The position numbers were made by a program, and so were the translations under genes. DNA of 52,378 nucleotides from Verrucomicrobiota bacterium (GTDB lineage Bacteria > Verrucomicrobiota > Verrucomicrobiia > Opitutales > Opitutaceae), in NCBI GenBank assembly GCA_018239675.1, contig JAFEGX010000110.1:1-52378 (forward strand). The letters are read 5' to 3'. Positions 8,727 through 49,033 of this stretch are shown here, piece by piece. The notes under the pieces were generated by a model that saw nothing but the letters and a program-made list of their open reading frames with translations, ran no database searches and was not told the origin of the DNA. Each line of letters opens with the position of its first letter. Within the stretch, counting starts at the first letter, position 1.

Positions 8727-9527
8727 GTGCCCCGCGCCTCCCTGCCCGTGTTGCTCGGCCTGCTGCTGACCGGGTGCGGCGTGCCCGCATCCGCGGCGGG
8801 GGAGTCCGGATTGGTCGCCGCGTGGACGCTGGTGGCGCGCCACCTCCCCGCGGACGCGCGGGCGCGGCTGCCGAAGGATCCGCCGGCCGACCGCGAGAGC
8901 GCCCTGGCCGTCGCGGTCGTCGACATGGACCGCCAGCCGGTCACGGACGAGAGGCTGAGCGCCTGCATCGTCGCCCTGCGGGACCTTGCCCGCGGCGATG
9001 ACGAGGTCGCGCAGATTGCGGGGTACCTTGTCGGCCGGATCTACCAGGTGCACCTGTTTCAGCCCGACCCGGCGAAGGCGGCGCAGGCCTACGAGGAGGT
9101 CGCGCTGCGCCATCCCGGCAGCTACTGGGCGCAGCTGGCGCTGGTGAAACTGGCGCTGCTCGACCTGTTCCTCCTGCCGCAGCCGGCCGCGCCCGCCGAT
9201 CGCGTCGCGGCCGCGGAGGCGCTGCTGCCGAAGGTCACGGACCCGGCGCTCCGGCGCGACCTGCACTTGGTGCTGGGGCGCGGCCGGCTTTTCCACCGGC
9301 TGCCGGGGGTGCTGCCGCACCTGCTCGAGGCCGACCGGATCGGCGGTCTGGCCGGGGTGGCGCGGGCCGACCTGCAGCTGCAGATCGGCGAGCTGTCGCG
9401 GCGCGCGGGCGAGGCCGCGACGGCCCGGCGGTATTTCGAGGCCTTCCTGGCCGAGAACGAGGTCGACCCGCGCGTCTACGCGGTGCGGGTAAAACTGGCG
9501 TCCCTCGCGAAAGGCCCCGGCCCATGA
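8727..9527 (+). CDS. Predicted lipoprotein with helical repeats
   Basis: The 266-aa product starts most plausibly at GTG 8727, which gives a short, classic lipoprotein signal ending LLLTGC with the acylated cysteine at residue 17. Upstream ATG starts in the same frame (8607, 8658) would put about 25-40 extra residues before the signal and seem wrong. After the signal the protein is Ala/Leu-rich and helical. Segments such as PAKAAQAYEEVALRHPGSYWA and EAATARRYFEAFLAEN look like degenerate TPR units. It overlaps the solute-binding gene by ATGA at 9524-9527, so the two are probably coupled and may work together at the cell envelope. The function is otherwise unknown. The start is the least certain part. 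Confidence 0.75.
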   Translation: MPRASLPVLLGLLLTGCGVPASAAGESGLVAAWTLVARHLPADARARLPKDPPADRESALAVAVVDMDRQPVTDERLSACIVALRDLARGDDEVAQIAGYLVGRIYQVHLFQPDPAKAAQAYEEVALRHPGSYWAQLALVKLALLDLFLLPQPAAPADRVAAAEALLPKVTDPALRRDLHLVLGRGRLFHRLPGVLPHLLEADRIGGLAGVARADLQLQIGELSRRAGEAATARRYFEAFLAENEVDPRVYAVRVKLASLAKGPGP

Positions 9528-11119
9528 GACGCGCGCCGTTCCTCCGTGGCCTGCTGCTGCTGGTCGTGGCGTACGCGGCCGCGACCTACTGGGTGTTCAC
9601 GCGCTCGGCGCCGCTGGTGGCGGCGCGGCCGGTGACGCTGCGGTTCGCGCACTGGCAGATCGAGCGCGGGCCGCCCGACGGCCTGACGGCGGTGATCCGG
9701 CGCTACGAGGAGCTGCACCCCCGGGTGCGGGTCGAGCAGGTGGCGGTGCCCAGCGCGCTGTACCGGCAATGGCTGCGGACCAACCTCACCGGCGGCACGG
9801 CGACGGATCTCATCGAGTTCGCGTATTTCCTCGGCGGCGTCGACGACGTGCCGGCGCGGTATTTCGAGCCGCTGACGCGGTACATGGACCGGCCCAACCC
9901 GTACAACCGCGGCACCGCGCTCGAGCGGGTCGCGTGGCGGCAGACCTTCGCGGACGGGCTCTTCCTGATGACCAGCCAGAGCCCCGAGGTCGGCCAGATC
10001 TACGGCGTGACCCTCTCGCAGGGAAGCCTGCGCCTGTTCTGCAACCGCGAGCTCCTGCGCCGGATCACGGGCCGTACGGAGGGGCCGAAGGACTTCAACG
10101 CCTTCCGGGCGCTGTGCGCGCAGGTGGCCGAGTACCGGCGTCGCACCGGCCGGCCCGTCCAGCCGCTCGCGGGCTCGCGCAGCAATGCGCGGTGGCTGAT
10201 GGAAATGCTGATGCAGGGCTGCGTGGCGGGGATGAACCTCGAGCTTGACCGCGACGGCCTGCTGAGCCGGAACGTCACCCAGTCGCTCGAGGACTACCTG
10301 CAGGGCCGCTGGACCGCCCGGCGGCCGGAACTGCGGGCCGCGTACGCGCTGCTGCGCGAGGTCAGCCAGCAGATGCGGCCCGGCTTCGAGCAGCTGGGGC
10401 GCGACGACGCGATCCAGGAGTTCGTCCGCGGCGAGGCGCTGTTCATCTTCACGGGCTCGTACGACGCGACGAGCCTCGCGCGGCTGGCGCCGTTTCCGGT
10501 GGCGGCGATGCACGTGCCGCAGCTGACGCCGGATGATCCGGTCGTGGGCCCGTACATCGTGGGCCCGTATCAGGAGGGCCTCCTGGGCACGGGCATGGAA
10601 ATGTACCTGAACAAGGACAGCCGCCACAAGGAGGAGGCCCTCGACTTCCTGCACTTCCTCACCAGCTGGGAGGGCGGGAAGATCTTCTCGGCGCACAGCG
10701 GCTGGCTCTCGTCGATCCGCGGGGTGCCGGTGGCGCCGGAGATCGAGGTCCAGCGCGCGACCGTCAACGGTTACCACACCGGGACCTTTTACATGGGCCT
10801 CGGCCCCAACACCGCGCTCTCCTTCCAGCAGCACCTGAACCAGCTCGTCGGCCCGCAGGGCAGCGTGGACCGCTTTGTCGACGCGCTGGAGGCGGACATG
10901 CGCCGGGAGGCCGCGGCCGACCTGCGGCTCGACCTGCGGGCGAAACTGACCGGGGCGCGGGCGATCGACTCCGAGCTGGCCGCGGTGGCGTCGCTGGACC
11001 GGCTCGAGCCGGCCACGCCTGGGCGGGCGATGCGCCGGTCGGCCCTGGCGTCGAACCAGACCCTGGCGGAATTGCGGGCGGCCGAGGCGGCATGGATCCT
11101 CGATCACCCGGCGCCGTGA
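9524..11119 (+). CDS. Extracellular solute-binding protein, sugar type
   Basis: This 531-aa protein has an N-terminal hydrophobic segment (about residues 8-27) that may be an uncleaved anchor. A family 1 solute-binding fold follows: VTLRFAHWQ, then RRYEELHPRVRVEQV and TATDLIEF, typical of carbohydrate ABC transporter receptors. Later features include EALFIFTGSYD and EEALDFLHFLTSWEGG, which are common near the end of this fold. A roughly 80-residue helical C-terminal extension follows. No permease or ATPase gene lies nearby, so it is an orphan receptor or has another role. It is translationally coupled to the upstream lipoprotein. The ligand is unknown, most likely an oligosaccharide. Confidence 0.87.
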   Translation: MRRAPFLRGLLLLVVAYAAATYWVFTRSAPLVAARPVTLRFAHWQIERGPPDGLTAVIRRYEELHPRVRVEQVAVPSALYRQWLRTNLTGGTATDLIEFAYFLGGVDDVPARYFEPLTRYMDRPNPYNRGTALERVAWRQTFADGLFLMTSQSPEVGQIYGVTLSQGSLRLFCNRELLRRITGRTEGPKDFNAFRALCAQVAEYRRRTGRPVQPLAGSRSNARWLMEMLMQGCVAGMNLELDRDGLLSRNVTQSLEDYLQGRWTARRPELRAAYALLREVSQQMRPGFEQLGRDDAIQEFVRGEALFIFTGSYDATSLARLAPFPVAAMHVPQLTPDDPVVGPYIVGPYQEGLLGTGMEMYLNKDSRHKEEALDFLHFLTSWEGGKIFSAHSGWLSSIRGVPVAPEIEVQRATVNGYHTGTFYMGLGPNTALSFQQHLNQLVGPQGSVDRFVDALEADMRREAAADLRLDLRAKLTGARAIDSELAAVASLDRLEPATPGRAMRRSALASNQTLAELRAAEAAWILDHPAP

Positions 11120-12169: not shown

Positions 12170-13576
12170 ATTACTTCCCCTGCCGAGCCCAACTCCGCCC
12201 CTCCGCGTCCCGCCGCCCGCGTCTGGCAAGCCGGGACCCTGACCTACACCACCGGCGGACTCGTCGCGCTGTTCTTCTGGCTTTTGGGGGGCGACTTCGG
12301 CTTCAACCTGAAGGAGCGCTCGGTGCCCGTGACGCTGCAGGTGCTGCTGCGGCAGTTCCACGTCTCGGACATGCTGACGGGCTTCCTGCTCGCGACGCTG
12401 CCGCAGCTGATCATCCTGCTGGTCGGCCCGGTGGTCGCATACCGCAGCGACCGGCACCGCGGCCGGTGGGGCCGCCGCATCCCATTCCTCCTCGTGCCGA
12501 CGCCGGTGGCGGTGGTCTCGATGGCGGGCCTCGCATACGGCCCGGCGCTCGGCCGCTGGGCGCACGCGGCGCTGGGGGCGTCGTCACCCGGCGAGGGCCC
12601 CTGCGTGGTGGCGACGCTGGCGCTGTTCTGGGCGCTGTTCGAGCTCAGCGCGCTCGTCTGCAACCAGGTCCTCATCAGTCTCATCACCGACGTGGTGCCC
12701 GGGCCGGTCATCGGTCGGTTCTTCGGCCTGTTCCGCTTCGTGTCGCTCCTGGCGGGCATTCTCTTCAGTTACTTCGTCCTCGGGCACGTCGAGCAGCATT
12801 ACACCCTCGTCTTCCTGGCCATCGCGGCGATCTACGGCGTAAGCTTCACCGCGATGTGCCTCAAGGTGAAGGAAGGCGAGTACCCGCCGCCGCCGCCGGC
12901 CCCAGTCCCGTCCGGCATCGGTTGGCTGGCACGAATCGAACAGTTCATGGGCGGCGTCAGGACCTACGCCCGGGATTGTTTTTCCCAGCCCTACTACCGC
13001 TGGTTTTTCGCCTCGTTTGCGCTCACGATGATGGCGGGCGTGCCGGCCAATCTGTTCACCCTCTATTTTGCCCGGTCGCTCGACCTGAGCATGGCCACCT
13101 ATGGCAAGCTGTCGGCCATCCAGTTCGTCCTGTCGCTCGCGCAGGCCTATCCCATCGGCTGGCTGGCGGACCGGTTTCATCCGCTGCGGGTCACCCTGTT
13201 CGCGGTGGCCCTGATCGTCGCGAGCAACCTGCTGGCCTTTGTCCTCGTGCGGGACGCGGTGTCCTACGGGGTCGCGATGGTCGTCTGCGGCTCGCTGTGG
13301 GGCTTCTATTACACGGCTTCGTCGGCTCTGCCGGCGGCGCTGCTCGCGCGCTCGCGCTTCGCGAGCCTCGACAGCGCGAAGGCGATGGTGGGCGCGCTGG
13401 GCCAGATGGTGATCGGCCCGATCGTGGGCTGGTCCCTCGACCTGCTACACCACGAGTACCGCTACATGTACCTGTGGGCGGGAGGCCTCGGCCTGCTCGC
13501 GCTGGGGGCGACGCTGATGATCCACCGGCGGTGGATGCAGTTCGGCGGGGCGCAGCATTACGTCGCGCCCGAGTAG
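12170..13576 (+). CDS. MFS transporter with a non-standard start
   Basis: This is a polytopic major facilitator protein of about 468 aa with some 12 membrane segments. The family loop YRSDRHRGRWGRRIPF between helices 2 and 3 is clear, and GWLADRFHPLR is the matching second-half loop. The likely role is uptake of a sugar or other small substrate. The frame has no ATG, GTG or TTG between an in-frame TGA at 12140 and a TTG at 12284. Starting at the TTG would delete most of the first helix (GGLVALFFWLLGG). Homology-like sequence already begins at WQAGTLTYTTGG, so I place the start at ATT 12170, where ATG would be expected. CTG 12239 is an alternative. It converges on the desaturase fusion gene. 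Confidence 0.85.
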   Translation: MTSPAEPNSAPPRPAARVWQAGTLTYTTGGLVALFFWLLGGDFGFNLKERSVPVTLQVLLRQFHVSDMLTGFLLATLPQLIILLVGPVVAYRSDRHRGRWGRRIPFLLVPTPVAVVSMAGLAYGPALGRWAHAALGASSPGEGPCVVATLALFWALFELSALVCNQVLISLITDVVPGPVIGRFFGLFRFVSLLAGILFSYFVLGHVEQHYTLVFLAIAAIYGVSFTAMCLKVKEGEYPPPPPAPVPSGIGWLARIEQFMGGVRTYARDCFSQPYYRWFFASFALTMMAGVPANLFTLYFARSLDLSMATYGKLSAIQFVLSLAQAYPIGWLADRFHPLRVTLFAVALIVASNLLAFVLVRDAVSYGVAMVVCGSLWGFYYTASSALPAALLARSRFASLDSAKAMVGALGQMVIGPIVGWSLDLLHHEYRYMYLWAGGLGLLALGATLMIHRRWMQFGGAQHYVAPE

Positions 13577-13719: not shown

Positions 13720-15993
13720 TCAGAATTCGTCGAACGCGATCTGGGACGGCGGGACGCCGAGGTCGGCGAGCATGCGGGTGCAGGCCTTGATCATCGGCGG
13801 CGGGCCGCACAGGTAATACTCGACCGCCGCCGGCTGCGGGTGGTCGCGCAGGTGCTGGGCGAGCACCACCTCGTGGATCAAGCCGGTCGGGCCGGTCCAG
13901 CGGTCCTCCGCCAGCGGCGCCGAGAGGGCGACGTGGAAGGTGAAGTTCGGATGGGCCGCCGCCAGCCCCGTGAAGTAGTCCTCGTAGAAAAGCTCCTGCC
14001 GCGACCGCGCGCCGTACCAGTAGCTCACGCGGCGCTGCGTGCGCTCGCTCTCGAAGAGGTGCGCCAGGTGCGAGCGCAGCGGCGCCATGCCCGCGCCGCC
14101 GCCGATGTAGACCGCCTCGCGCTGCGTCGGCTTGAGGTGGAAGTCGCCGGCGGGCCCCACCGCCGTCACCACGTCGCCCGGCTTCAGGCTAAAGACGTAC
14201 GCCGACCCCACGCCCGGCGGGCAGTCCTGCCCGGGCGGCGGCATTGCGATGCGGACGTTGAACCGCAGCACGCACTCGGTCGCCGGATCGTTGGCCAAGG
14301 AGTAGTTGTTGCGCCGGCCCTCCGCGGTGTGCCGCGCCACGAGGTGGAACAGGTGCCACGCCTCCCACACGGCCGCATACGGCGCGGGGATGTCGAAGTC
14401 GCGGAACCGGATCTCGCCGTACGCCGGGATGTCGAGCTGGAGGTACTCGCCGGGTGCGAACGCGAAGGCTCCGTCGAGCGGCTCGAGACACAGTTCCTTG
14501 ATGAAGGTGGCGACGCTGCGGTTGGAGACGACCCGGAAGCGGTGGGTCTGCGGGGCGCGCGCGCCGACGCCGGCGGCGCGCGCAACGTTGAGGTACAGCC
14601 GGCCGCCCCGGTCCTCGAGCGGGCAGGTCGCGAGCCCGCGGCAGACCGGGGACCGCGCCGGCGCGCCGTCGGAGAGGCGGAACCGGCCGTTGTGCTTCGG
14701 GCACTCGAGCAGGCCGTCCTTCACCAGGCCGTCGCCGAGGTGCGTGTTGCCGTGCGTGCAGATGCCGTCCGTGGCGTACAGGCGGCCGTCGGTGTCGCGG
14801 CAGAGCGCGTAGGTCCTCCGGCCGTGGTCGAAGCGGACGACGTCCTCGCGGCCCAGGTCGAGCGCGGCGCAGACCTCCACCCAGCCGTCCGGGTCGGGCC
14901 GGGCGTCGCCGGCGTCCAGCACCGCGCTGGTCGGCCGGGTCTGTGGCGCCGGCAGACGGCGCTTCACATAGTAGCCGGGGTCCTTTGCCTGCCGGATCAC
15001 CGCCGGGATGATCTCGCGGTAGGCGGCAAGGATGCCGGGGTAGGGCTCGGGCGTGTCGGATTTCACCGCGGCGTGCAGCCGCGGCAGCGCGTGGTAGGGC
15101 ACCAGCGGGAACATGTGGTGCTCCACGTGGTAGTTCATGTTCCAGTAGAGGTACCGGTGCAGGGGGTTCATGTAGACCGTCCGGCAGTTGAGCCGGTGGT
15201 CGAGGACGTTCTCCGCCAGGCCCGCGTGCTGCGTGAGGCCGTACATCACCATCAGCCACGAGCCGTAGAGGTTGGTCAGGCCCACGTACATGAGGGGCAG
15301 GACGCTCCGCGTGTAGAGCGCGAGCGCGATGACGCCGGCGTAGATCGCGACATAGATCCGGGCGCGGAAATAGATCTTCGGGAACTCGCTCTCCGGGATG
15401 AAGGTGCGCTCGGCCAGCGACATCCGCCCGAGGGCGTGCATCACGATCTGCCGAAAATAGGCCGGGTACACCGGCAGGTTGAAGACGCTCGCGACCAGTT
15501 TCCGCAGGTTGGCCGGGCGCGGGACGAAGATCTCGGGGTCGCGGCCCACGATGATCGTGTCGCTGTGGTGGCGCGTGTGGCTCCAGCGCCACAGCGTCGA
15601 CTCGCGCATCACCATGAACGAGGCGATCTCGTACAGCGCGTTGTTCATCCAGTCGGTCCGGAAGGCCGTGCCGTGTTCGGTCTCGTGCCAGCGCGAGTCG
15701 GACGTCGACGCGTACAGCGTGCCGTAGATGAAGAACGGGATCACGGCCCACCAGGTGCCCCAGAGCCGGTAGCCCGCATAGCCGCTCGCGAGGATCAGCG
15801 CGAACCAGAGCAGAGTGTCCCGGATCGCCGGGCCGTTCCGCCGCTCGAGCAGGCGCCGCATCGTCGCGCGCGGCACGGGGCACTGGTACCACTCGGCCTC
15901 GGCCAGGCCCTGCTCGATGGCGGCGGCGGTTGTCTGGCCGGTCAGGCTGTAGTCTTGGCGGGCGGTCGGCCGGGCGGCCGTCTCGGTGCTCAT
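13720..15993 (-). CDS. Fatty-acid-desaturase-like / Rieske / NAD(P)H-flavin reductase fusion (copy 1)
   Basis: This 757-aa protein joins three redox modules. Residues about 55-310 form a membrane desaturase/hydroxylase domain with hydrophobic helices and di-iron histidine boxes: His103/His107 (HETEH), His139/142/143 (HTRHH) and His289/292/293 (HVEHH). Residues about 365-470 are a Rieske [2Fe-2S] domain with Cys412-x-His414 and Cys431-x2-His434. Residues about 483-757 resemble the NqrF/ferredoxin reductase flavin module, with NNYSLAN, GGGAGMAPLRSHL and YYLCGPPPMI. On one chain electrons could flow from NAD(P)H through flavin and the Rieske centre to the di-iron site. It starts 7 bases after galM, so the two form an operon. 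The substrate is unknown; a lipid desaturase is possible, but the sugar context suggests otherwise. A close paralogue lies at 45,656-47,947. Confidence 0.93.
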   Translation of the reverse strand: MSTETAARPTARQDYSLTGQTTAAAIEQGLAEAEWYQCPVPRATMRRLLERRNGPAIRDTLLWFALILASGYAGYRLWGTWWAVIPFFIYGTLYASTSDSRWHETEHGTAFRTDWMNNALYEIASFMVMRESTLWRWSHTRHHSDTIIVGRDPEIFVPRPANLRKLVASVFNLPVYPAYFRQIVMHALGRMSLAERTFIPESEFPKIYFRARIYVAIYAGVIALALYTRSVLPLMYVGLTNLYGSWLMVMYGLTQHAGLAENVLDHRLNCRTVYMNPLHRYLYWNMNYHVEHHMFPLVPYHALPRLHAAVKSDTPEPYPGILAAYREIIPAVIRQAKDPGYYVKRRLPAPQTRPTSAVLDAGDARPDPDGWVEVCAALDLGREDVVRFDHGRRTYALCRDTDGRLYATDGICTHGNTHLGDGLVKDGLLECPKHNGRFRLSDGAPARSPVCRGLATCPLEDRGGRLYLNVARAAGVGARAPQTHRFRVVSNRSVATFIKELCLEPLDGAFAFAPGEYLQLDIPAYGEIRFRDFDIPAPYAAVWEAWHLFHLVARHTAEGRRNNYSLANDPATECVLRFNVRIAMPPPGQDCPPGVGSAYVFSLKPGDVVTAVGPAGDFHLKPTQREAVYIGGGAGMAPLRSHLAHLFESERTQRRVSYWYGARSRQELFYEDYFTGLAAAHPNFTFHVALSAPLAEDRWTGPTGLIHEVVLAQHLRDHPQPAAVEYYLCGPPPMIKACTRMLADLGVPPSQIAFDEF

Positions 15994-16000
15994 GGAGGGA

Positions 16001-17032
16001 TCAGAGGATCGTGAAGGCGTAGGCGGTCCGGCGGCGCTGCGGGGTGCCGGGCCGCACGAGGATGTCGCCGAAGCCCGGCCGGTTGGTCGCGTCGGGGTAG
16101 CCCTGGCACTCGACGCAGAGCCCGGCGTGCGCCCCGTAGACGCGGCCCGACTTGCCGACCAGCGTGCCGTCGAGCGCCACGCCCGTGTAGAACTGCAGCC
16201 AGCCCTCGTCGGTCGTCACCGTCATCTGCCGGCCGGACCGCGGCTCGGCCACGCGGGCGACGATCCGCCCGGCGGGCGCGCCGAGCTCGTAGGTGTCGCC
16301 ATGGGCCTGGTAAAGGTGCGGCAGCGCGTCACCCAGGCGCCGCGACCGGCGGAAGTCCCCCGGCTGGCCCGCGACCGGGAGCCGGCGGCCAAGGAGCGTG
16401 AAGTGCTCGTCCGTGGGGATGACGGTGTCGGCGAGGATCTGCACGTCGTGGTCCGCAACCGACCCCGTGCCCTCGCCGGCGAGGTTGAAATAGCCGTGGT
16501 GGGCCAGGCTGATCGGCGTCGGTCGGTCGGAGGTCGCCTCGCTCTCGATGACCAGCACGTGGTCGGCGGTCCAGGTGTACGTGACCGCCAGGTCCACGTG
16601 GCCCGGATAACCCTCCTCGCCGTCGGGACTGTGATAGGTGAGCCGCAACGACGCCGCGCCGTCGGGCCGCGCGACGGGCTCGGCCTGCCACACGCGCCGG
16701 TCGAGGCCGACGAGGCCGCCGTGGAGGTGGTTCGGGCCGTTGTTGCGCGCAAGCGGATAGGTGCGGCCCTCGACGAGCAGGCTGCCGTTCGTCACCCGCC
16801 CCGCGATGCGGCCGATGATCGCGCCGAAGTAGGGGTGGCGGGCCACGTAGGCCGCGAGCGTGTCGAAGCCGAGCACGACGTCCGCCAGGCGCCCGTGGCG
16901 GTCGGGGACCGACAGCGTGCGCACGATGCCGCCGAGCGTGAGGATCTCGACCGACGCACCCGCCTTGTTTGCCAGGGTCCAGGCGGAGACGGGTTCGCCG
17001 CTGGGCATCGTTCCGAAGGGGCGCGACTTCAT
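16001..17032 (-). CDS. galM: Aldose 1-epimerase (galactose mutarotase)
   Basis: This 343-aa cytoplasmic enzyme interconverts the alpha and beta anomers of a hexose. Family marks are GGIVRTLSVPD near residue 30, GRIAGRVTNG, NNGPNHLHGG, LAHHGYFNLAGEG (catalytic histidine region), DEHFT, and ECQGYPDATNRPGF with the catalytic glutamate near the C-terminus. The start at 17032 (MKSRPFG) matches family length; the frame extending to 17128 adds an Arg-rich leader and intrudes on the divergent promoter region. It is the first gene of a two-gene operon with the desaturase-Rieske-reductase fusion, only 7 bases away, and is divergent from the aldolase operon. The link to an oxygenase is unusual. The sugar preference cannot be told. 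Confidence 0.95.
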   Translation of the reverse strand: MKSRPFGTMPSGEPVSAWTLANKAGASVEILTLGGIVRTLSVPDRHGRLADVVLGFDTLAAYVARHPYFGAIIGRIAGRVTNGSLLVEGRTYPLARNNGPNHLHGGLVGLDRRVWQAEPVARPDGAASLRLTYHSPDGEEGYPGHVDLAVTYTWTADHVLVIESEATSDRPTPISLAHHGYFNLAGEGTGSVADHDVQILADTVIPTDEHFTLLGRRLPVAGQPGDFRRSRRLGDALPHLYQAHGDTYELGAPAGRIVARVAEPRSGRQMTVTTDEGWLQFYTGVALDGTLVGKSGRVYGAHAGLCVECQGYPDATNRPGFGDILVRPGTPQRRRTAYAFTIL

Positions 17033-17183
17033 GGGGTGGGGCCGGGCGCCGGCCGGGTGCCGGCGTCGCCGCATCCTCACTGACACGCCCGGGGCCCGAG
17101 GGCAATGGCGGCGCGCGGTAATTTTCACCGAAATTCACTCGTACCGCCGGCACGGCCCCGTAGTTTCGCGCCATCCCCGTCCC
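17033..17183. promoter_or_regulatory. Divergent promoter region, galM operon and aldolase operon
   Basis: The 151-base spacer separates two outward-facing sugar operons, so shared regulation is plausible. It contains a short AT-rich stretch, TAATTTTCACCGAAATTCA at about 17,117-17,135, with imperfect dyad symmetry (AATTT and AAATT six bases apart). That could be an operator or a -10 region. No regulator gene is adjacent. Confidence 0.4.
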
Positions 17184-18851
17184 ATGAAGGTCCCCGCCCT
17201 CCAGCGCCTGCGTGCGCGCCTCCAGGCCCGCCAGCCGGTCTACGGGATGTGGATCACGCTCGAGTCCCCGAGCATCTGCGAGATGGCGGTCGCGCTCGGG
17301 CTCGACTGGGTCGTGATCGACGCCGAGCACGGGCATCTGGACTGGAAGGAGATCATCGAGCACGTCCGGGCCACGGTCCGCAGCCAGACGGTCGCGCTGG
17401 TGCGCCTCGCGGAGAATTCCCCCGCCCTCATCAAGCGCGCCCTCGACATCGGCGCCGACGGCGTGGTCATCCCGTGGATCGAGACCCCGGCCCAGCTCGA
17501 GGCGGCGCTCAAGGCCGCCACCTATCCGCCCCGCGGCCTCCGCGGCATCGGCGCCGAGCGCGCCACGTGCTGGGGCCAGTGCTTCATCGAGCACACCGGC
17601 GAGGCGGACCAGAATGTCCTCGTCATTCCAATCATCGAGAGCGTCAAGGCGGTCCGGAATATCGACCAGCTCGCGCGTGTCGCCGGGGCCGACGTGTTCT
17701 TCTTCGGCCCGGCCGACCTGTCGGCCACCGCGGGGTTCCCGGGACAGTGGGAGGGTCCGGGCGTCGCCGGCCTGATCGAGCAGGCAAAGGACACGCTCCG
17801 CCGGGCCGGCAAGCACTGCGGCGTGATCGCCACCGACGAGGCGAACCTCAGCCAGCGCCGCGAGCAGGGTTTCGCGATGCTGGGGGTGGGGCTCGACGGC
17901 AGCCTGCTCCTCCGCAGCCTGCACCGGATGCTCGCCTCGCAGGGGCGCGACCGCGCCATCCGCGCGGGCTTCACGCTGGAGAACGACCCGGTCGCCGTCG
18001 CGAACGAGCTGCCCGCGAAATGCGCGCCGGCGGAGCTGCGGCCCGACCGGCCCGAGGTCATGAACGCCCGCGGCGCGGGTCCCCAGCTCGAGATCTGCCC
18101 CGGCGTCACGCTCGATGTCCAGGTCGGCGGCCACAACCAGGCGCGCCAGCTGACGACCGGCCTCGTCACCTTCCAGCCGGGCGCGCAGCTGCCCTGTCAC
18201 CGTCACACCTTCGCCGAGTCGATCACGCTGCTGCAGGGCCGCGCCCAGGTGGACGTCGAGGGCCGGGTCTACGAGGTCGGGCCGCTGGATAACGTCACCA
18301 TCCCGCGCGGCCTGGCCCACCGGGTGAACAACCTCTCGCGCACGCAGCCGGCGTTGTTCCATGTGGCGCTGGCCTCGGCGGCGCCCGACCGCGAGCTTGT
18401 GCACCAGTTCTTCCCGAAGCGCGCGATGCCGGAGGTCACTCAGACCCAGCCCGGAGGCGAGCGGGTGACGTTCATCCGCAAGGCGGCCCGCTACTCTCCC
18501 GGTAATCACGCGGGCTTCGTGGATTTCTTCAATGACGAGCTGGTGCCGGGCCTCGAGATGAGCGGCGGCTATGGGTTGTTCCAGCCGGGCGGCCGGCTGC
18601 CGGCGCACCTGCACGACTTCGACGAGTCGATCTGCATCGTCGAGGGCCGCGCCACCTGCGTGGTCGAGGGCCGGCGGTACGCGCTCGACCAACTCGGCAC
18701 CGCGCTCCAGCCGCGCGGCCGGATCCACTATTTCATCAACGAATCCACGGCCGCCATGGGCATGATCTGGGTCTACGCCGGGCCCAAGCCCGAGCGGATC
18801 GTCGTCGCCGAGGAGTGCGCCACCGCCGCCGGCGTCGCGTGGGGCCCTTGA
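17184..18851 (+). CDS. HpcH/HpaI-type aldolase fused to a double cupin
   Basis: This 555-aa protein has an N-terminal class II pyruvate aldolase domain (about 1-265). Its marks are DWVVIDAEHGHLDW, PIIESVKAV with the metal-binding Glu, and FFGPADLS with the metal-binding Asp, as in HpaI, GarL and RhmA. Such enzymes split 2-keto-3-deoxy acids to pyruvate and an aldehyde. The C-terminal half (about 300-555) holds two cupin domains, each with metal-ligand-like sets: LPCHRHTFAE..H and LPAHLHDFDE..H. The cupins may process a sugar acid, like KdgF, or bind the ligand. The start at 17184 (MKVPALQRL) fits aldolase homology; the long upstream frame is a shadow over galM. It heads a four-gene same-strand operon with two dehydrogenases and a TIM-barrel enzyme. 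Confidence 0.93.
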   Translation: MKVPALQRLRARLQARQPVYGMWITLESPSICEMAVALGLDWVVIDAEHGHLDWKEIIEHVRATVRSQTVALVRLAENSPALIKRALDIGADGVVIPWIETPAQLEAALKAATYPPRGLRGIGAERATCWGQCFIEHTGEADQNVLVIPIIESVKAVRNIDQLARVAGADVFFFGPADLSATAGFPGQWEGPGVAGLIEQAKDTLRRAGKHCGVIATDEANLSQRREQGFAMLGVGLDGSLLLRSLHRMLASQGRDRAIRAGFTLENDPVAVANELPAKCAPAELRPDRPEVMNARGAGPQLEICPGVTLDVQVGGHNQARQLTTGLVTFQPGAQLPCHRHTFAESITLLQGRAQVDVEGRVYEVGPLDNVTIPRGLAHRVNNLSRTQPALFHVALASAAPDRELVHQFFPKRAMPEVTQTQPGGERVTFIRKAARYSPGNHAGFVDFFNDELVPGLEMSGGYGLFQPGGRLPAHLHDFDESICIVEGRATCVVEGRRYALDQLGTALQPRGRIHYFINESTAAMGMIWVYAGPKPERIVVAEECATAAGVAWGP

Positions 18852-41432: not shown

Positions 41433-43556
41433 TCAGAAGGTCCAGGACAGGCCGCCGTAGACGCTGCGGCGTTCGCCGTATTGCGGCGCCCCGACGCCGA
41501 TGCCGGAGCCGTCGCGAAGTTCGTACCCGTCGTCGAACACGTTCAGCACTTCGAGGCGCGCGCGCAGCTGGCGGCGGCCGCCAAACCTGAACGTGTGCTC
41601 GACACCGAGGTTAAGCGGCGCATAGGCCGGCAGTTTCGCGGTGTTGGCGAAGCCGCGCCGCAGGCCGCTGCCGTACAGCAGGTCGGCGAACGCCAGGGTG
41701 TCGGTCCAGCGATACGAAATCCCGGTTGACGCGGTCAGGCGCTGGTCGTGGTCGAGGAAGACATCGTGCGCTGCGATGTACGCGAGTTCGGCGGGATCGA
41801 ACTGGAATTCGCCGCTGGTGATCTCGCGGCCGGTGGCACGGCTGACCGCGACATTGGCGTACGCCGTGAAACGGTCGCGGGTGTAGTTCGCCGCGAGCTC
41901 CACCCCGTGGACGCGGCCCGTGCGAAAGTTGAACGGCGCGTAGATCAGGGCCTGGCCGAACTGGCCCTCGTCGAGCTGGTTGCGCGCGGTCTTGTAGTAC
42001 GCGTCGAGCGTGAGGGCGAGGTCCGGGGTCAGCTTGTGACTCAGGCCGGCGTCGAAGTAGTGCGAGCGCTCGGACCGCACCGGAGAGCTGGCCGTCAGTT
42101 CGGGGGCGTTGGTGGTGTTTGCGAACTGCGCGATGTCGCCCGTCTGGAGGACCTCCAGCGGCGGCGGCGTGAAGTAGCGGGCGTAGCCGGCGTGCAGGCT
42201 CGTGGCCGCGCTGAGGGTGTAGACGGCGTTGAGGCGGGGGCTGAGCTGGCTCTCCCGCGTGTAGGCGTCGACGGCGTCGGCGCGCGCGCCGTAATTCACC
42301 GTGAGATCGCCGAGCTTCCACTCGTCCTGGAGGTACCCGCCGTAGAGCTGTCCGCGCTTGCGCTGGTGGTCCGCGATGGTGAAGGGGACGTTGGACAAGA
42401 CTGTGCCGCGGTCGTCGGTGGCGAAGACCGCGGTCGCAGTGTCGGTGGCGGCGCGGTCCCACGAGACCAGCAGGCCGCCGCGCAGGGTGTGGCGGGCGGC
42501 GACGGCCCAGCGACCGTCGAACTCGAGTCCCTGCGAGTCGAGGTCCCGCCGCACGTCACTCGCGACCCCGTTGAACATCAGGTCGCCGACCGGATCCGGC
42601 TCGAAGTGCAGGCGGCTCGCCCGCGTGAACGCCACCGCCTGCAGCGAGACGTCGCCGGCCGTGTGCTGGAAGGCGACGACGGCGTAGTGGCTGTCCTCGT
42701 GCTGGCGTTCGTCGAGCTGGGAGGAGTCGAACGTGGAGAACCCAGGCAGGGTGAACGCCACCGCCTGCCCGGGATTGTTCGGAATCTCGAACCGGGCGCT
42801 CGAGGCGCTCGCGATGAAGTTGAGCCGGCTGGTCGGCGTGAGCGTGGCGGAGATATAGGCGAAGCCCTTGGCCTGCTCGGTATGGTCGTGGATCGCCTCG
42901 TGGGCCGGGGTAGGGTTTTCGACGCCGAGATTGTTGGAGTCGTAGCTGGCGGTGAGGTAGTAATCGACCTTGCCCAGGGTGCCGCCCGTCTCGAACGACG
43001 GGTTCCAGCGCTCGTGGGCGCCGCCGTAGAGCGAGAGCTCGCTGCTGGGCGCGTTGCGGCCGCTCTTGGTGTGGATGTCGACGACCCCCGACGTGCGGTA
43101 GCCGTACTGGGCTGGCAGGGAGCCGGTCAGGACTGCGACCGTGTCGACGAGCCGCGTGTCGAGCTCGGCGGCGAAGCCCCCGACGCCCTCGGGCAGGAGC
43201 ACGTCATTGATGCGGTACTGGAGATTGGCGTGCTCGCCGCGGAGGTGGACCTGGCCGCCGGAGTCCTGCGCGACGCCGGGTACGCGGAGCAGGACCTGGT
43301 TGAACGCGGCGTCCGGGCCCTGTGGCTGGGCGGAGAGCTGCGTGATCGAGATCTGGAACGAGGTGGCGCCGAGATTCGGGACGATGTCCTCGCGGGCGCG
43401 GTCGAGTTCGTCGGTCACGACGAATTTCTCGAGTTTGATGGGGGAGCTATTTTCGGCCGCGGCGGCGCCGTCGGGCGCGGGCTGGGCGGAGACGAGCGAA
43501 ACGGCGGCGGTGAGCGAAACGGTGGAAAGGAGAAGGGAGAAACGGGGGTGCGACAT
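41433..43556 (-). CDS. TonB-dependent receptor, second
   Basis: This 707-aa outer-membrane receptor has a signal peptide to about VSA/QPAP. A TonB-box-like segment (IKLEKFVVTDEL) and a plug with LLRVPGVAQDSGGQVHLRGEH, YRINDVLLPEGVGG and TSGVVDIHTKSG follow. The barrel includes GYLQDEWKLGDLTVNYGARAD and ARYFTPPPLEV and ends LEVLNVFDDGYELRDG then SVYGGLSWTF. It resembles the OAR/cobalamin-metal class of receptors more than the siderophore type, though the ligand is not clear. The start at 43556 (MSHPRF) is set by the signal. A small membrane protein with a His/Cys motif lies 100 bases upstream on the same strand and is probably linked. Confidence 0.94.
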   Translation of the reverse strand: MSHPRFSLLLSTVSLTAAVSLVSAQPAPDGAAAAENSSPIKLEKFVVTDELDRAREDIVPNLGATSFQISITQLSAQPQGPDAAFNQVLLRVPGVAQDSGGQVHLRGEHANLQYRINDVLLPEGVGGFAAELDTRLVDTVAVLTGSLPAQYGYRTSGVVDIHTKSGRNAPSSELSLYGGAHERWNPSFETGGTLGKVDYYLTASYDSNNLGVENPTPAHEAIHDHTEQAKGFAYISATLTPTSRLNFIASASSARFEIPNNPGQAVAFTLPGFSTFDSSQLDERQHEDSHYAVVAFQHTAGDVSLQAVAFTRASRLHFEPDPVGDLMFNGVASDVRRDLDSQGLEFDGRWAVAARHTLRGGLLVSWDRAATDTATAVFATDDRGTVLSNVPFTIADHQRKRGQLYGGYLQDEWKLGDLTVNYGARADAVDAYTRESQLSPRLNAVYTLSAATSLHAGYARYFTPPPLEVLQTGDIAQFANTTNAPELTASSPVRSERSHYFDAGLSHKLTPDLALTLDAYYKTARNQLDEGQFGQALIYAPFNFRTGRVHGVELAANYTRDRFTAYANVAVSRATGREITSGEFQFDPAELAYIAAHDVFLDHDQRLTASTGISYRWTDTLAFADLLYGSGLRRGFANTAKLPAYAPLNLGVEHTFRFGGRRQLRARLEVLNVFDDGYELRDGSGIGVGAPQYGERRSVYGGLSWTF

Positions 43557-43656
43557 GATGGAACGGAGCGGGTGTGGACGGAACGACGCCGTCCGGGTGG
43601 ACGGGCGCAAACGCCGGGTCCGAACCTGCGGACCCCGGCGGCGGGATACACCTGAC

Positions 43657-43983: not shown

Positions 43984-44047
43984 GATGCGCGGACTGTTTC
44001 GGGAAAGCGGGTCCTGTCAAGTCGCCAGGGACCGGAAGCAATACGGT

Positions 44048-44188: not shown

Positions 44189-44193
44189 CGTCG

Positions 44194-44508
44194 TTAATCC
44201 AGGTGATAGACCTCCGTCAACGGCTCCGCATTTGGGGTGTGATCAGAGTTATATACCATTACATCCTCCATGTAGGCCCACCAGCGGCGGCACTCGGGCG
44301 TCCGCGCGATCGCCTCCCACTGCTCAACGTTGACCACCTCAGCATAGCCGAACAATTGGCCGGTAGGCGCATGATGGTAGATGGAGTAGTTACTCACCCC
44401 ATGTAATTTTAGGACGGCCACAAGGTCGGACCAAACAGCTCGATGGCGGCGAATATACTCGTTGGCGTTTCCGGGCTTGATCGTCATCAGGAATGCGGTG
44501 CGTGTCAT
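44194..44508 (-). CDS. rhaM: L-rhamnose mutarotase
   Basis: This 104-aa protein aligns by eye along its whole length with the E. coli RhaM pattern: FLMTIKPGNANEYIRRH, VWSDLVAVLKLHGVSNYSIY, LFGYAEVVN, CRRWWAYMEDVM and a C-terminal LTEVYHLD. It interconverts the anomers of L-rhamnose, or a related deoxy-sugar, to feed catabolism. The start at 44508 (MTRTAFLM) matches family length. It is the third and last gene of a minus-strand operon, 44 bases after the UroD-like gene and downstream of the oxygenase fusion. No rhamnose isomerase or kinase is nearby, so its partner pathway lies elsewhere or differs. Confidence 0.95.
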   Translation of the reverse strand: MTRTAFLMTIKPGNANEYIRRHRAVWSDLVAVLKLHGVSNYSIYHHAPTGQLFGYAEVVNVEQWEAIARTPECRRWWAYMEDVMVYNSDHTPNAEPLTEVYHLD

Positions 44509-44552
44509 GGTATGTCGGAGTTCAATATTTCTGTGTCGTTGGCTCCGGGCTA

Positions 44553-45644
44553 CTACTGTCGGGCGAAACCTCCAGAAACGCGCGTGTCGCTCGGCCATTG
44601 CTGCGCTTCATCAATCATTGACAGTACGTTGCCAACTGGGGTGCCAGCCTGAACATTGTGGCAAGAACAGACGATATATCCGCCACTTTGGCCGAGTGTT
44701 TCGATGCAGCGTCGAACTTCGGCTCGAACCTCGTCTGGCGAGCCGTGGGGGAGCACATGCTGGTTGTCGATACCGCCGTGGAAAATGAACTGGTCTCCGA
44801 AATCGTGCCGGAGTGGCCCGGCTTCCATGCCGGGGCAGACATGCTGGATTGGATTAAGCAGATCTACGCCGCAGTCGGCGAGGTGTGGTAAGAAAGGCCG
44901 TGATGCGCCGTCAGTATGAAACAACACCTTCTTCCCGTGGCTATGGATGAGTGTACACCAGCGATGGATGCGGGGCTTGAGATGCTCCTCGAATGCCCTC
45001 AGCGACATCAATTGGCTCTCTTGGGTGCCGAGGTCATCAGAAATGAAAACCAGGTCGATTTGTTTCCCGGCACAGGCTAGAAAGCGGTTGAGCATAGCCG
45101 TTTGGATCGATTCGATGCGGTCAAGGGCGGCGGTAAGGAATTCGTGCTCGCAGATCAGGTCGGCCAAGGCGTTTTCCATGCCGCGCAGGTGGCAATAGAT
45201 TTCGAAGTTGGAAAGCCACGGTCCGATGGTGGCGAAGTCGAAGGATCGTGCGCGCCCTGCGAGGCTAGCGGCGGCCTCGTAGTTGAACTTTTCCGGATCA
45301 GGCCAGAACGGGTAGTCGTCCAGTTGGGCTGGCGATTCCATGGCTGCAAGCGGACCCTCGCCATATTCCTGATAGGTGGCCGCGCCGGATTTGACTCGCA
45401 GCGTTGGGACGCCCCACGGATCTCGGCCGTCGCTCTGGTTGGGATCAAATCTCTCTGTGCGGTAGCCAGGGAAAACCCAGACAATCTTGTCCAAGCCAAG
45501 ATGACGGTAGAGTGCGAGCTCGTCCTGTATTCCGGTGTGGCTTTGCAGGGCTTGGAGCATCTCGGGAGTGAGCCAGATATCCACCGGGGTTCGATCAATG
45601 TCCCGGCGTTCCAAGACCGCGTGAATGCGCTCAAGTGGTGTCAT
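44553..45644 (-). CDS. Uroporphyrinogen decarboxylase-family protein (MtaA/CmuA-like)
   Basis: This 363-aa protein has the UroD barrel fold: MTPLERIHAVLERRDIDRTPVD at the start, LGLDKIVWVFPGYR, DFATIGPWLSNFEIY, LVFISDDLGTQE, VLFHTDGASRPFLPHL and a C-terminal YIVCSCHNVQAGTP. The His and Cys in the last two segments fit the zinc ligands of corrinoid methyltransferases in this superfamily. It lacks features needed to call it heme-biosynthetic HemE, and its setting in a sugar operon supports a different role, perhaps methyl transfer. The start at 45644 leaves an 11-base gap from the oxygenase stop; the longer frame overlaps it. It is followed by rhaM. Confidence 0.9.
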   Translation of the reverse strand: MTPLERIHAVLERRDIDRTPVDIWLTPEMLQALQSHTGIQDELALYRHLGLDKIVWVFPGYRTERFDPNQSDGRDPWGVPTLRVKSGAATYQEYGEGPLAAMESPAQLDDYPFWPDPEKFNYEAAASLAGRARSFDFATIGPWLSNFEIYCHLRGMENALADLICEHEFLTAALDRIESIQTAMLNRFLACAGKQIDLVFISDDLGTQESQLMSLRAFEEHLKPRIHRWCTLIHSHGKKVLFHTDGASRPFLPHLADCGVDLLNPIQHVCPGMEAGPLRHDFGDQFIFHGGIDNQHVLPHGSPDEVRAEVRRCIETLGQSGGYIVCSCHNVQAGTPVGNVLSMIDEAQQWPSDTRVSGGFARQ

Positions 45645-45655
45645 AGCTGCGTGGC

Positions 45656-47947
45656 TCAGAATTCGTCGTAGGAGATCTGCCCAGGATCCACGCCGCGTTG
45701 TGCGAGCATCCTCTGACAGGCGTCTACCATCTTTGGGGGACCACACAGGTAGTACTCGACGGCATTTGGATTGGGGTGATCGCGAAGATGATTTTCCAGC
45801 ACGACCTCGTGAATGAACCCTTTGTGTCCGGTCCAGGCGTCTTCCGGCAGAGCGGAAGACAAGGCGACATGAAACTGGAAATTCGGATGGCGCGCTGCTA
45901 GGCCTGCGAAATACTCGCTGTAGAAGAGTTCCTGCCGAGAACGCGCGCCATACCAGAAACTAATCCGCCGCGCGCTGCGCTGGGTTTCGAGCAGATGGGA
46001 AAGGTGGGCGCGAATCGGGGCCATCCCCGCACCGCCGCCGACATAGACAGCCTCGCGTTGCGTTGGCTTGGAGTGGAAGTCACCAAAGGGCCCGTGCGCC
46101 GTGACGAAGTCGCCTGACCGGAGGGAAAATAAGAAGGCCGAGCCTATTCCCGGCGGGCAGTCCTGGCCGGGCGGCGGAGTGGCGATACGGACGTTGAAGC
46201 GGAGCGTGCGCTCGGTCGCGCCATTGCTGGCGATGGAGTAATTGTTCCGACGCGAGCCAAGAGGATTACGCGCCACGAGATCAAACACGTGCTGCGCCCG
46301 CCAGACAGACGCATAGGGTTCTGAGATGTCGAAGTCCCGAAAGCGAATCGTGTTATAGGTGGGGATCTCAAGCTGCAGGTAGTCGCCCGGAATGAATTCC
46401 ACCTTGGTTGCGGAATCTAGGGGCTCAAGGATTAGCTCCTTGATAAAGGTGGCGACGCTGCGGTTGGCGACGACCCGGAGCTGAAAGGACTTTTGTGGGC
46501 GAGCACCGCACCCGCCGGCACGGGCTATATTGAGCCGGAGACGGCCGCCGTGCTCTGTGAGCGGGTAAGTAGCCAATCCCCGGCAGATTGGGACCCGCGC
46601 CGGTGAACCGTCGGCGAATCGGAACCGGCCGTTGTGTTTCGGACATTCGATGATGTCGCCCTTGACGAGACCTTCTCCCAGATGGGTGTTACCATGGGTG
46701 CAGATGCCGTCGGTGGCGTGAAGACGACCGTCGTGATCGCGGATAAGGGCGAAAGTCTTCCGGCCGTGGTCGAACCGGACTACCTGGTTCCGCTGCAAGC
46801 CGTCGGCAGCTCCGGCATCGAGCCAGCCATCTGCGTCGGGGCGCGCATCGCAGGCCGCCACCGCCCCTCGCCGAGGTTTGGGGTCGGGCAGCTTCCGCTT
46901 CACATAGTAGCCCGGATCCTTGACCTGCCGTAACACAGCCGGCAGCAACTCGCGCCAGGCGGCGTAGATTGAAGGGTAGGGCGGCGGGCAGTCGTGGCGA
47001 ACGAGCTCATGCAGCTTTGGCAATGCATGGTAGGGCACCAGGGGAAACATATGGTGCTCGAGGTGATAGTTCATGTTCCAGTACACGAATCGGCTGAAGG
47101 GATTCATGTAGACCGTCCGGCAGTTCAGGCGATGGTCGAGCACGTTTTCGGCGAGGCCGGCGTGTTGCGTGGTATTGTGCAATATCATCAACCAGGTGCC
47201 AAAGAAGTGCGGCAGGATTATCAGGAATACGGGCGCCCAGCTGTGGAACCAGCAGGCGAGGGCGACGGTGGCGAGATAGATGGCGATGACGATGCGCGCA
47301 TTGCGTGCGATGGCCGGGATTTCGCTTTCTGGGACGAAGGTCCGTTCGGCGTCGGTGATCTGGCCGAACGCATGACGGAGCAGCCCCGGAAAGTACGTGC
47401 GGTAGTTGCCGAGATTGAAGATACTGGCGATATGAGCCCGAAGATTAGGGGGGCGGGAAACCTGAATTTCGGGATCACGTCCGACAATGATCGTGTCGCT
47501 GTGATGGCGGGTGTGACTCCAGCGCCAAATAATCGATTCGCGAATGACCATGAACGAGGCTATCTCATATAGCGCATTGTTCATCCAGTCAGTGTCGAAC
47601 GCTGTGCCATGGCCGGCCTCGTGCCAGCGAGAATCCGAGGCGGTCGCATACAGAACGGCGTAGAGCAAATAGGGCAGCACTGCCCACCAAGTGCCCCACA
47701 ACGCCAAGGTCGCCCACGCCGTGGCCCCGAGAAGGGCGAACCAGAGCAAGGTGTCGCGGATGGCGGGCCCGTCACGGCGTTCCAACAGCAACCGCAATTG
47801 CTCGCGCGGCACCGGGGTTTGATACCACTCTGCCTCGGCAAGCCCGAGTTCGACGGCCCGAGCTGCGTTCTTGCCGATTAGGCTATAATCAAAATTCGAG
47901 GCGGCTGGTGGGCTGGCGGGGAAAGAGGCTAGGCTGGCTTGGCTCAT
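45656..47947 (-). CDS. Desaturase-like / Rieske / NAD(P)H-flavin reductase fusion (copy 2)
   Basis: This 763-aa paralogue of the protein at 13,720-15,993 is closely similar throughout and has the same domain order. Di-iron boxes are His109/His113 (HEAGH), HTRHH at 145-149 and HLEHH at 295-299. The Rieske motif is CTH then CPKH (about 416-438), and the reductase module has NNYSIASN, GGGAGMAPIRAHL and YYLCGPPKM. It ends DEF like copy 1. The differing second residue pair in the first box (HEAGH against HETEH) may alter the active site. The codons look less GC-biased than copy 1, so it is probably not a recent local duplication but acquired or diverged separately. It heads the operon with the UroD-like gene and rhaM and is divergent from an AraC regulator. 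Confidence 0.93.
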   Translation of the reverse strand: MSQASLASFPASPPAASNFDYSLIGKNAARAVELGLAEAEWYQTPVPREQLRLLLERRDGPAIRDTLLWFALLGATAWATLALWGTWWAVLPYLLYAVLYATASDSRWHEAGHGTAFDTDWMNNALYEIASFMVIRESIIWRWSHTRHHSDTIIVGRDPEIQVSRPPNLRAHIASIFNLGNYRTYFPGLLRHAFGQITDAERTFVPESEIPAIARNARIVIAIYLATVALACWFHSWAPVFLIILPHFFGTWLMILHNTTQHAGLAENVLDHRLNCRTVYMNPFSRFVYWNMNYHLEHHMFPLVPYHALPKLHELVRHDCPPPYPSIYAAWRELLPAVLRQVKDPGYYVKRKLPDPKPRRGAVAACDARPDADGWLDAGAADGLQRNQVVRFDHGRKTFALIRDHDGRLHATDGICTHGNTHLGEGLVKGDIIECPKHNGRFRFADGSPARVPICRGLATYPLTEHGGRLRLNIARAGGCGARPQKSFQLRVVANRSVATFIKELILEPLDSATKVEFIPGDYLQLEIPTYNTIRFRDFDISEPYASVWRAQHVFDLVARNPLGSRRNNYSIASNGATERTLRFNVRIATPPPGQDCPPGIGSAFLFSLRSGDFVTAHGPFGDFHSKPTQREAVYVGGGAGMAPIRAHLSHLLETQRSARRISFWYGARSRQELFYSEYFAGLAARHPNFQFHVALSSALPEDAWTGHKGFIHEVVLENHLRDHPNPNAVEYYLCGPPKMVDACQRMLAQRGVDPGQISYDEF

Positions 47948-48082: not shown

Positions 48083-49033
48083 ATGCGCTATTTCTGCCTC
48101 ATTTGCGCCAATTCAACGATTTGGCTTCGCGATATTCCCGCCTTCGACTTTGCCACCATGGGCTACAGATATCTCGAGGTTACGACGGAAGACCTGCGGC
48201 GTGAGCTCTACCTGACCAGCGTGGGCCACGCGGAATTTCGTCCCGGAGACCTTTATCCGGAGCACGGGCATCCTGCGGACTACGACTTCACTTGGACAAA
48301 AGGCCGCGTGCTGGGTGACTTTGCCGCCGTTTTTATTGAAAAGGGCGGTGGCCTTTTCGAAACCCGCGAGGTGAAAATGAAATGCCAGGCGGGAGACGCC
48401 TTCCTGATCCCACCCGGATCTTGGCATCGTTACCGGCCGGAGAGCGCGACCGGTTGGACTGAGCGCTGGATTTGCGGCAATGGCGAATACCTGCATCGCC
48501 TGAGGGCCAAGCGGCGTTTGGGCTTGGCCGGCACCGTGAACAGCGCCTGCGACGTGCGGCGGTTGTTGGCAGCCATGCGACGCACCTACCGGATCGTCGT
48601 AAAGGATGGAGCCCAAAACTCTCTGGCCACCGCCGGCCTAGGTCTGGAGATATTTGGCTTGGTCTCCAGTACTTCCTCGGGAGAGGCACCCGCGAGTGAC
48701 TGGCTAGAGACGGGCGACAGGATTGTAGATTCGGCTCGGGAGTTTATCTGGCTCAACAGTCATCGGCCCCTGACAGTTGCCACGATCGCCGCGCGCTTGG
48801 GTGTCTCCAGACGCACGTTGGAGCGCCGTTACTCCGGTATTTGCGGCCAAACTGTCGTCCGCACACTCATTGAACGTCGCGTGCAAGTCGCGCGCCAATT
48901 GCTGATCGAAACTAGTATGTCAGTGAAAGAGATATCCTACGCCGTGGGCTTTGGCGATTCGCGCCGGTTGATCCGGAATTTCAAGCAGGTCTTCGGACAG
49001 ACCCCGCTGAGTTTCCGCGGACGATCAGCTTGA
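48083..49033 (+). CDS. AraC-family transcriptional regulator
   Basis: This 316-aa protein has an N-terminal cupin-like sensing domain (about 40-130, with FRPGDLYPEHGHPADYDF and GDAFLIPPGSWHRYRPES). The C-terminal double HTH (about 205-310) carries LTVATIAARLGVSRRTLERRY and MSVKEISYAVGFGDSRRLIRNFKQVFG, the conserved second helix of the family. The ligand-domain pattern resembles sugar-responsive members such as RhaS. It is divergent from the oxygenase-UroD-rhaM operon across 135 bases and is the obvious candidate to control it, perhaps with the heparinase-like gene downstream. A second possible start, MGYRYLE at 48,158, would remove 25 residues of unclear value. Confidence 0.92.
   Translation: MRYFCLICANSTIWLRDIPAFDFATMGYRYLEVTTEDLRRELYLTSVGHAEFRPGDLYPEHGHPADYDFTWTKGRVLGDFAAVFIEKGGGLFETREVKMKCQAGDAFLIPPGSWHRYRPESATGWTERWICGNGEYLHRLRAKRRLGLAGTVNSACDVRRLLAAMRRTYRIVVKDGAQNSLATAGLGLEIFGLVSSTSSGEAPASDWLETGDRIVDSAREFIWLNSHRPLTVATIAARLGVSRRTLERRYSGICGQTVVRTLIERRVQVARQLLIETSMSVKEISYAVGFGDSRRLIRNFKQVFGQTPLSFRGRSA

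Follow-up and report, generated by a model that had tools for sequence, protein, structure and literature searches.

The mocDEF genes of rhizobia are needed for the catabolism of rhizopine, an O-methyl scyllo-inosamine, according to two reports (PMC10107442, PMC3538637), and a third names MocD as the oxygenase for the conversion of 3-O-methyl-scyllo-inosamine (3-O-MSI) to scyllo-inosamine (SI) (PMC2593844). The stretch described here (the window, i.e., the whole 52,378 nucleotides analyzed, contig JAFEGX010000110.1 of a Verrucomicrobiota bacterium) encodes, in two copies, a protein that joins a MocD-like membrane di-iron module (module D), a MocE-like Rieske module (module E) and an NqrF-type FAD/NADH reductase (module F) on one chain. 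This D-E-F fusion is a new form of the MocDEF kind of oxygenase, and each copy is probably a membrane O-demethylase of methylated sugars that is self-sufficient and driven by NADH, as judged from homology and gene setting. MocDEF and the fusion share homologous membrane di-iron and Rieske parts in the same order at about 55% identity, and both stand in a context of cyclitol or sugar catabolism. They differ in that MocDEF is encoded by three genes, possesses an FAD-dependent reductase of the MocF type and acts on a cyclitol, whereas the fusion is one chain with an unrelated reductase in a setting that indicates aldoses.

Plant and algal sugars bear methyl ethers, which are stable groups. For their aerobic removal from a monosaccharide, the enzyme that we found documented is a three-component P450 system for 6-O-methyl-D-galactose in marine Flavobacteriia, which carries out the reaction proposed here for the fusion, oxidative O-demethylation to the sugar and formaldehyde (PMC10033563). 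That system receives its electrons via a ferredoxin and a reductase and is a haem P450 with separate partners, which belongs to a different protein family. Fused AlkB proteins (AlkB-rubredoxin and ferredoxin-reductase-AlkB) likewise combine a membrane di-iron oxygenase with redox partners; in the excerpts available, these partners are a rubredoxin or an N-terminal ferredoxin and reductase (PMC8918992, PMC10113152), whereas the Rieske and NqrF-type modules of the present fusion are C-terminal in the order D-E-F. One of these papers, a review citing a 2001 source, states that no ferredoxin-fused desaturases had been found (PMC8918992).

Modules, ligands and ancestry

Homologues were sought in contigs of one genome per species, and the best 80 of 559 loci were taken (more exist); L-numbers below denote homologue loci and G-numbers the genomes of a separate search among relatives. 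The sequence-only reading of this DNA had proposed a search for the same fusion in other genomes, and all three modules are present in one open frame at 72 of these 80 loci, some frames ending at contig ends. At six of the other eight, the protein has modules D and E only (L110, L115, L117-L120; the two-module form), and at two, L116 and L122, D and E are split into a pair. Translation of 76 of the 80 loci, with four partial matches omitted, gave 67 uninterrupted three-module open reading frames (ORFs), 2 interrupted ones and 7 two-module or split forms. Conservation was scored over 69 sequences, i.e., the 67 uninterrupted ORFs and the two window copies. The fusion and its parts are as follows.

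13720..15993, minus strand: fusion copy 1, MocD-like di-iron, Rieske and NqrF-type FAD/NADH reductase modules; ORF of 757 amino acids (aa) with an ATG start
14929..15993, minus strand: module D, about residues 1-355, membrane di-iron histidine-box domain (Pfam FA_desaturase)
15673..15687, minus strand: His box 1, H103-E-x-x-H107, conserved in 69/69
15565..15579, minus strand: His box 2, H139-x-x-H142-H143, conserved in 69/69
15115..15129, minus strand: His box 3, H289-x-x-H292-H293, conserved in 69/69
14587..14883, minus strand: module E, residues 371-469, Rieske [2Fe-2S] domain, MocE-like, under the MocE family cut-off (Pfam, NCBIfam)
14692..14760, minus strand: Rieske ligands C412-x-H414 ... 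C431-x-x-H434, conserved in 69/69
13723..14535, minus strand: module F, residues 487-757, NqrF-type FAD/NADH reductase (NCBIfam nqrF, fold match)
45656..47947, minus strand: fusion copy 2, the same three modules, 68% identical to copy 1 (ORF, profile matches)

In copy 1, FA_desaturase (residues 80-319, E 2.8e-33, 116.2 bits), Rieske (residues 371-457, E 2.2e-15) and NAD_binding_1 (residues 630-738, E 3e-17) exceed their Pfam cut-offs, and FAD_binding_6 falls slightly under its own. The third-position GC of the ORF is 0.96; a plus-strand ORF of 796 aa across the same bases was judged to be a high-GC artefact, a judgement made without a domain search on that ORF. Loss of key His or Cys residues in most relatives would have spoken against the proposed modules, and these residues are kept throughout: in addition to the histidine boxes and the Rieske ligands, H256 and H266 are invariant, and H301 and H307 are present in 67/69. 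In the reductase, G631, G633, G635, M636, the CGP motif (C729, G730, P731) and S565 are each found in 69/69, and the flavin/NADH motif further retains Y564 in 67/69 and R561 in 66/69.

The AlphaFold model of copy 1 has a mean pLDDT of 85.5 and a pTM of 0.60, and its module F matches solved FAD domains of NqrF, a component of Na+-NQR, with a TM score of 0.96 by target length at 46% identity. The NCBIfam nqrF profile matches residues 487-757 of copy 1 with 315.8 bits (cut-off 295), and its match in copy 2 (window 45659-46492) also passes the equivalog cut-off. Only profile positions 133-403 are covered in copy 1, and positions 1-132 have no counterpart in the fusion. The N-terminal part of NqrF consists of a membrane helix and a plant-type [2Fe-2S] domain. 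A true NqrF was rejected because this N-terminal part of the profile is unmatched and because no nqrF match over the cut-off was found in the assembly (3.85 Mb, 148 contigs, 95.5% complete) apart from the two fusions. Automatic annotation may mislabel the family as "NqrF" or "desaturase".

Regarding ancestry, modules D and E (residues 9-468) are 55.4% identical to the products of two adjoining genes, one of the desaturase family and one of the MocE family, on a Phyllobacterium plasmid. The same locus encodes a PLP-type (MocR-like) regulator, a Gfo/Idh/MocA oxidoreductase and a sugar-binding protein. In annotated rhizobial records (L040-L042, L124), desaturase, MocE-type ferredoxin and FAD-dependent oxidoreductase are separate adjacent genes. 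Module F shows no homology to the MocF-type protein of L040 (BLASTP E 0.09), and the flanks fetched around seven split D,E loci (six genomes) and the six two-module proteins contained no NqrF-type module. In a quick maximum-likelihood tree of module D, computed without bootstrap and with three fused proteins of short D stretch omitted, the fused rows (79 three-module, 6 two-module) cluster with SH-aLRT 98 beside the split verrucomicrobial D,E pairs and rhizobial MocD; six stand-alone desaturase-family proteins of the source and related genomes lie far from this fused/Moc group (SH-aLRT 100). Because the three-module label requires 6 changes on the tree, or at least 5 when only well-supported branches are counted, module F has been gained or lost more than once. 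The two-module class was set without a frameshift check, and L110 may be a truncated gene. It is likely from these comparisons that D and E were fused, that an NqrF-type reductase replaced MocF, and that it was later lost in places.

The MocD/MocE ancestry speaks for O-demethylation rather than desaturation. The sequence-only reading had placed a desaturase-like, a Rieske and a reductase module on one chain at 13720-15993 and regarded them as a self-sufficient membrane oxygenase or desaturase: the modules and the span are confirmed by Pfam and NCBIfam domains and by the conserved ligands, and the oxygenase is well supported by the architecture, but "desaturase" as a function finds no support. 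That reading did not include the minus strand, the second copy, the MocD/MocE ancestry or the wide spread of the fusion.

The block at about 43000-52000, which holds copy 2, has a GC content of 57-63% compared with 65-73% in the remaining window, and the nearest tree rows of copy 1 are same-genus genomes, whereas those of copy 2 lie elsewhere, outside its genus. The low-GC block and this placement suggest that copy 2 was acquired later, perhaps recently.

Proposed reaction

In the proposed mechanism, NADH would reduce the FAD of the C-terminal module F, and the Rieske cluster would carry electrons singly to the di-iron site of the N-terminal membrane module. The path from FAD through a Rieske cluster to a di-iron site is drawn from established knowledge of such parts. 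The di-iron site would then activate O2 and hydroxylate the O-methyl group of a methylated sugar, and collapse of the resulting hemiacetal would release the free sugar and formaldehyde. The free reducing sugar would be the substrate of the mutarotases encoded next to each copy and would proceed to ordinary catabolism. We infer the electron order, the use of NADH over NADPH, the O-demethylation and the substrates, the last from the MocDEF kinship and the gene context. As aldose mutarotases and rhamnose and xylose genes lie beside the fusions, O-methyl aldoses are the suggested substrates; the best guess for the sugar product of copy 2 is L-rhamnose, and that of copy 1 would be an aldose.

Gene context and alternative readings

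The following genes surround the two copies.

12284..13576, plus strand: sugar-type transporter of the major facilitator superfamily (MFS), convergent with copy 1 (MFS_1, MFS_2)
16001..17032, minus strand: aldose 1-epimerase (mutarotase), start chosen, ORF open to 17128 (PF01263, 229.6 bits)
16860-18851, plus strand: HpcH/HpaI-type aldolase and two cupin domains in one ORF (Pfam; 83% in same-genus L026)
44194..44502, minus strand: L-rhamnose mutarotase (RhaM), the only one found in the assembly (TIGR02625, 116.6 bits, cut-off 99.6)
44553..45647, minus strand: URO-D / MtaA-CmuA-like protein downstream of copy 2, start chosen, ORF open to 45746 (PF01208, 81.5 bits)
48083..49033, plus strand: AraC-family regulator, divergent from copy 2 (profile matches)

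Upstream of copy 1 and in the same orientation, the epimerase gene ends with a stop codon 7 bp before the start codon of the fusion. Divergent from the epimerase are the aldolase-cupin protein, a 2-hydroxyacid dehydrogenase, a short-chain dehydrogenase/reductase (SDR) and a TIM-barrel protein, which are found at 83-89% in L026 together with the epimerase (74%). Genes of the Gfo/Idh and TIM-barrel types are found 5.5-8.4 kb away from copy 1, and the ORF at 9524-11119 was recognized as solute-binding-like by eye only. The MFS transporter, for which no homologue was found in the L026 stretch or among 87 further loci compared, is possibly unrelated to copy 1. Copy 2 heads an apparent operon with the URO-D/MtaA-like gene (55.8 bits against mtaA_cmuA, under the cut-off of 235.4) and RhaM. 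The source genome has two Aldose_epim matches and one RhaM; copy 1 adjoins the stronger Aldose_epim, and copy 2 is two genes from RhaM. A 646-aa protein near copy 2 (window 49304-51244, plus strand) has no NCBIfam match, and we take it, by eye, to resemble heparinase or alginate-lyase-type proteins.

Neighbor seeds for the other loci were picked after recurrent clusters had been seen in the same loci and were used in single-sequence searches on ORFs from a home-made picker that retains some antisense ORFs, so that the distance comparison is descriptive. It covers 82 fusion loci, the duplicate L116 (one contig with L035) being dropped, and the sequence per distance class is similar (521, 456 and 503 kb over all 96 loci). 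Mutarotase seeds were counted at 14 loci within 3 kb, 2 at 3-6 kb and 1 beyond 6 kb; any sugar seed at 40, 11 and 12; and C1/corrinoid seeds, including ambiguous URO-D and PanB-like ones, at 13, 4 and 5. The relatives search, the sole basis of the fractions of eight given here, covered 57 genomes chosen regardless of neighbors, 8 of them with the fusion; wider genome searches for mutarotases included genomes picked for such a neighbor or for tree closeness. Aldose_epim lies within 1 kb of the fusion in 5/8 (G000, G001, G010, G015 and, partial, G056), at 5.9 kb in one and nowhere near in two. The commonest neighbor is a TIM-barrel protein (35/96 loci, next gene downstream 26 times), for which one of three members tested reached Pfam AP_endonuc_2. 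RhaT-like proteins form a cluster with members in 10 loci, and the three tested are RhaT by Pfam. Beside the fusion in L107 are the L-rhamnose isomerase RhaA and the symporter RhaT, both over curated cut-offs, the mutarotase RhaM and a rhamnulokinase-type gene just under its cut-off (508 vs 528), and in L084 a xylose isomerase scores 549 against a cut-off of 447. In L103, a P450-family gene and a gene for a MocF-like reductase occur near the fusion.

Among the five rhizobial mocDEF loci examined, PurU is encoded in L041 and L124 and was not seen in L040, L042 and L122; its presence, in L124 with FolD and iolG, fits formaldehyde from O-methyl inositol. On a plasmid of Rhizobium sp. SL42, L124 assembles mocDEF-like genes, a PanB-like gene, iolG, FolD, PurU and a sugar ABC transporter, and from this gene content looks like an O-methyl inositol catabolic cluster.

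Several observations weigh against O-demethylation of sugars by the fusion. Module E misses the MocE_fam_FeS cut-off of 136.15 bits in both copies (110.6 for residues 371-469 of copy 1, 101.0 for copy 2), whereas the Phyllobacterium MocE scores 185.8. Foldseek with the module D model returned 115 matches at E up to 10, the only two below 0.001 being chains of the FtsHi motor complex, and no desaturase or AlkB was among the 50 of 115 matches listed; as this search was uninformative, the assignment of module D rests on sequence. No formaldehyde gene was recognized beside either window copy, PurU of the source genome lies on a different contig, and the PurU seed had no match in the fetched flanks of the 96 loci. 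No sugar seed lies within 3 kb at 42/82 fusion loci, and RhaM is near the fusion in 1/8 genomes of the relatives search only, the window's own. In L040 and L042 (Rhizobium plasmids), the mocDEF-like genes stand between genes for the synthesis of cobalamin and of NAD, where the only neighbors of sugar type are a TIM-barrel gene and one for a LacI regulator. The literature searched contained no measured activity for any fused protein. Corrinoid methyl-transfer genes occur near the fusion or the two-module form in L084, L103, L107, L114 and L118; the kinds, not all in each locus, are a B12 protein, RACo, MtaB family, URO-D/MtaA-like and methyltetrahydrofolate:corrinoid methyltransferase, the last in L114 and two-module L118. 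Corrinoid methyl transfer is a different, usually anaerobic, demethylation route. These genes may serve such a second route, or may mean that methanol is produced.

Methanol would be expected if the enzyme oxidized the methoxy-bearing carbon of the sugar or cyclitol instead of the methyl group, and a keto-sugar would result from oxidation of another ring carbon. Oxidation elsewhere than at the methyl group is unlikely, though it has to be considered seriously: L103 and L107 encode corrinoid proteins and MtaB-family proteins (methanol-type, under the NCBIfam equivalog cut-off), and Gfo/Idh and TIM-barrel pairs, which fit a keto-sugar, were counted beside the fusion or the two-module form in L033, L055, L059, L078, L081, L095, L120 and L121. 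The L107 genes, however, handle the unmodified parent sugar L-rhamnose, and the rhizobial PurU genes favor formaldehyde. A function in lipid desaturation or hydroxylation, with the redox partners on the same chain, would agree with the FA_desaturase score given above, but the only curated bacterial desaturase model that scored, DesB (25 of the 27 matching families being listed), gave 43.1 vs 500 bits, and the genome has separate stand-alone desaturase-family genes. Moreover, no lipid gene was recognized among the annotated neighbors, and the closest characterized relatives found serve O-methyl cyclitol catabolism. A lipid substrate is thus improbable, the fusion is probably not a lipid desaturase, and this function was ruled out as first choice on ancestry, neighbors and model scores; the sequence-only remark that the sugar setting does not suit an ordinary lipid desaturase is upheld.

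The homology to MocD and MocE could also point to an N-demethylase or to a rhizopine enzyme proper. No MocR-type regulator was recognized among the annotated neighbors of either copy, and the adjacent genes encode aldose enzymes, which makes this identity slightly less probable still than a lipid enzyme. We give very little credence to an oxygenase of hydrocarbons or aromatics, the least probable of the readings: one report likens the action of mocDEF to the initial stages in the breakdown of toluene, benzene and xylene (PMC5132102), but no aromatic-degradation gene was recognized among the annotated neighbors.

Spread of the fusion

According to record titles, carriers of the fusion belong to Verrucomicrobiota, Kiritimatiellota, Acidobacteriota, Bacteroidota, Planctomycetota, Chloroflexota and Pseudomonadota, at least six phyla. 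The nearest named relatives come from Opitutaceae and other Verrucomicrobiota, which suggests a verrucomicrobial source for the window. Most are metagenome-assembled, and single odd taxonomic placements are unreliable; those without a metagenome mark include Mucilaginibacter sp. L294, Wenyingzhuangia gilva, Labilibacter sediminis and Sunxiuqinia indica. Plasmid records gave 945 matches to the fusion query, none covering 80% of it, and phage records gave 5, none covering more than 80%. In the open-licence literature, judged by titles and abstracts and with most subscription papers outside this scope, no recognizable report of the D-E-F fusion was found, nor one that identifies it as a lipid desaturase. 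A term search of the accessible part of a paper on Verrucomicrobiota and methyl pentoses found no mention of O-methyl or demethylation (PMC8857213).

It is an evenly balanced proposition that the fusions of Verrucomicrobiota, Acidobacteriota, Bacteroidota, Chloroflexota, Planctomycetota and Pseudomonadota form a widely distributed family, not named before, of membrane di-iron O-demethylases on one chain, in which a MocD-MocE fusion carries an NqrF-type reductase in place of MocF and which opens methylated monosaccharides (rhamnose, xylose and other aldoses) to catabolism. If so, a self-contained enzyme in several phyla would help to explain the use of methyl sugars and would offer a convenient single-protein catalyst. 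The O-demethylase reading, if true, would also cover Pseudomonas syringae, in which mocDEF is reported to lie beside an extra xylose isomerase gene and its function is described as unclear (PMC5132102).

As a separate observation, three ORFs lie together in L006 562-2799 (G000:C87): one of 101 aa is Rieske-like, another is aldose-epimerase-like, and the third resembles phytanoyl-CoA dioxygenases by eye; matches of the same two kinds (Rieske-like and aldose-epimerase-like) lie equally close in G009 and G031.

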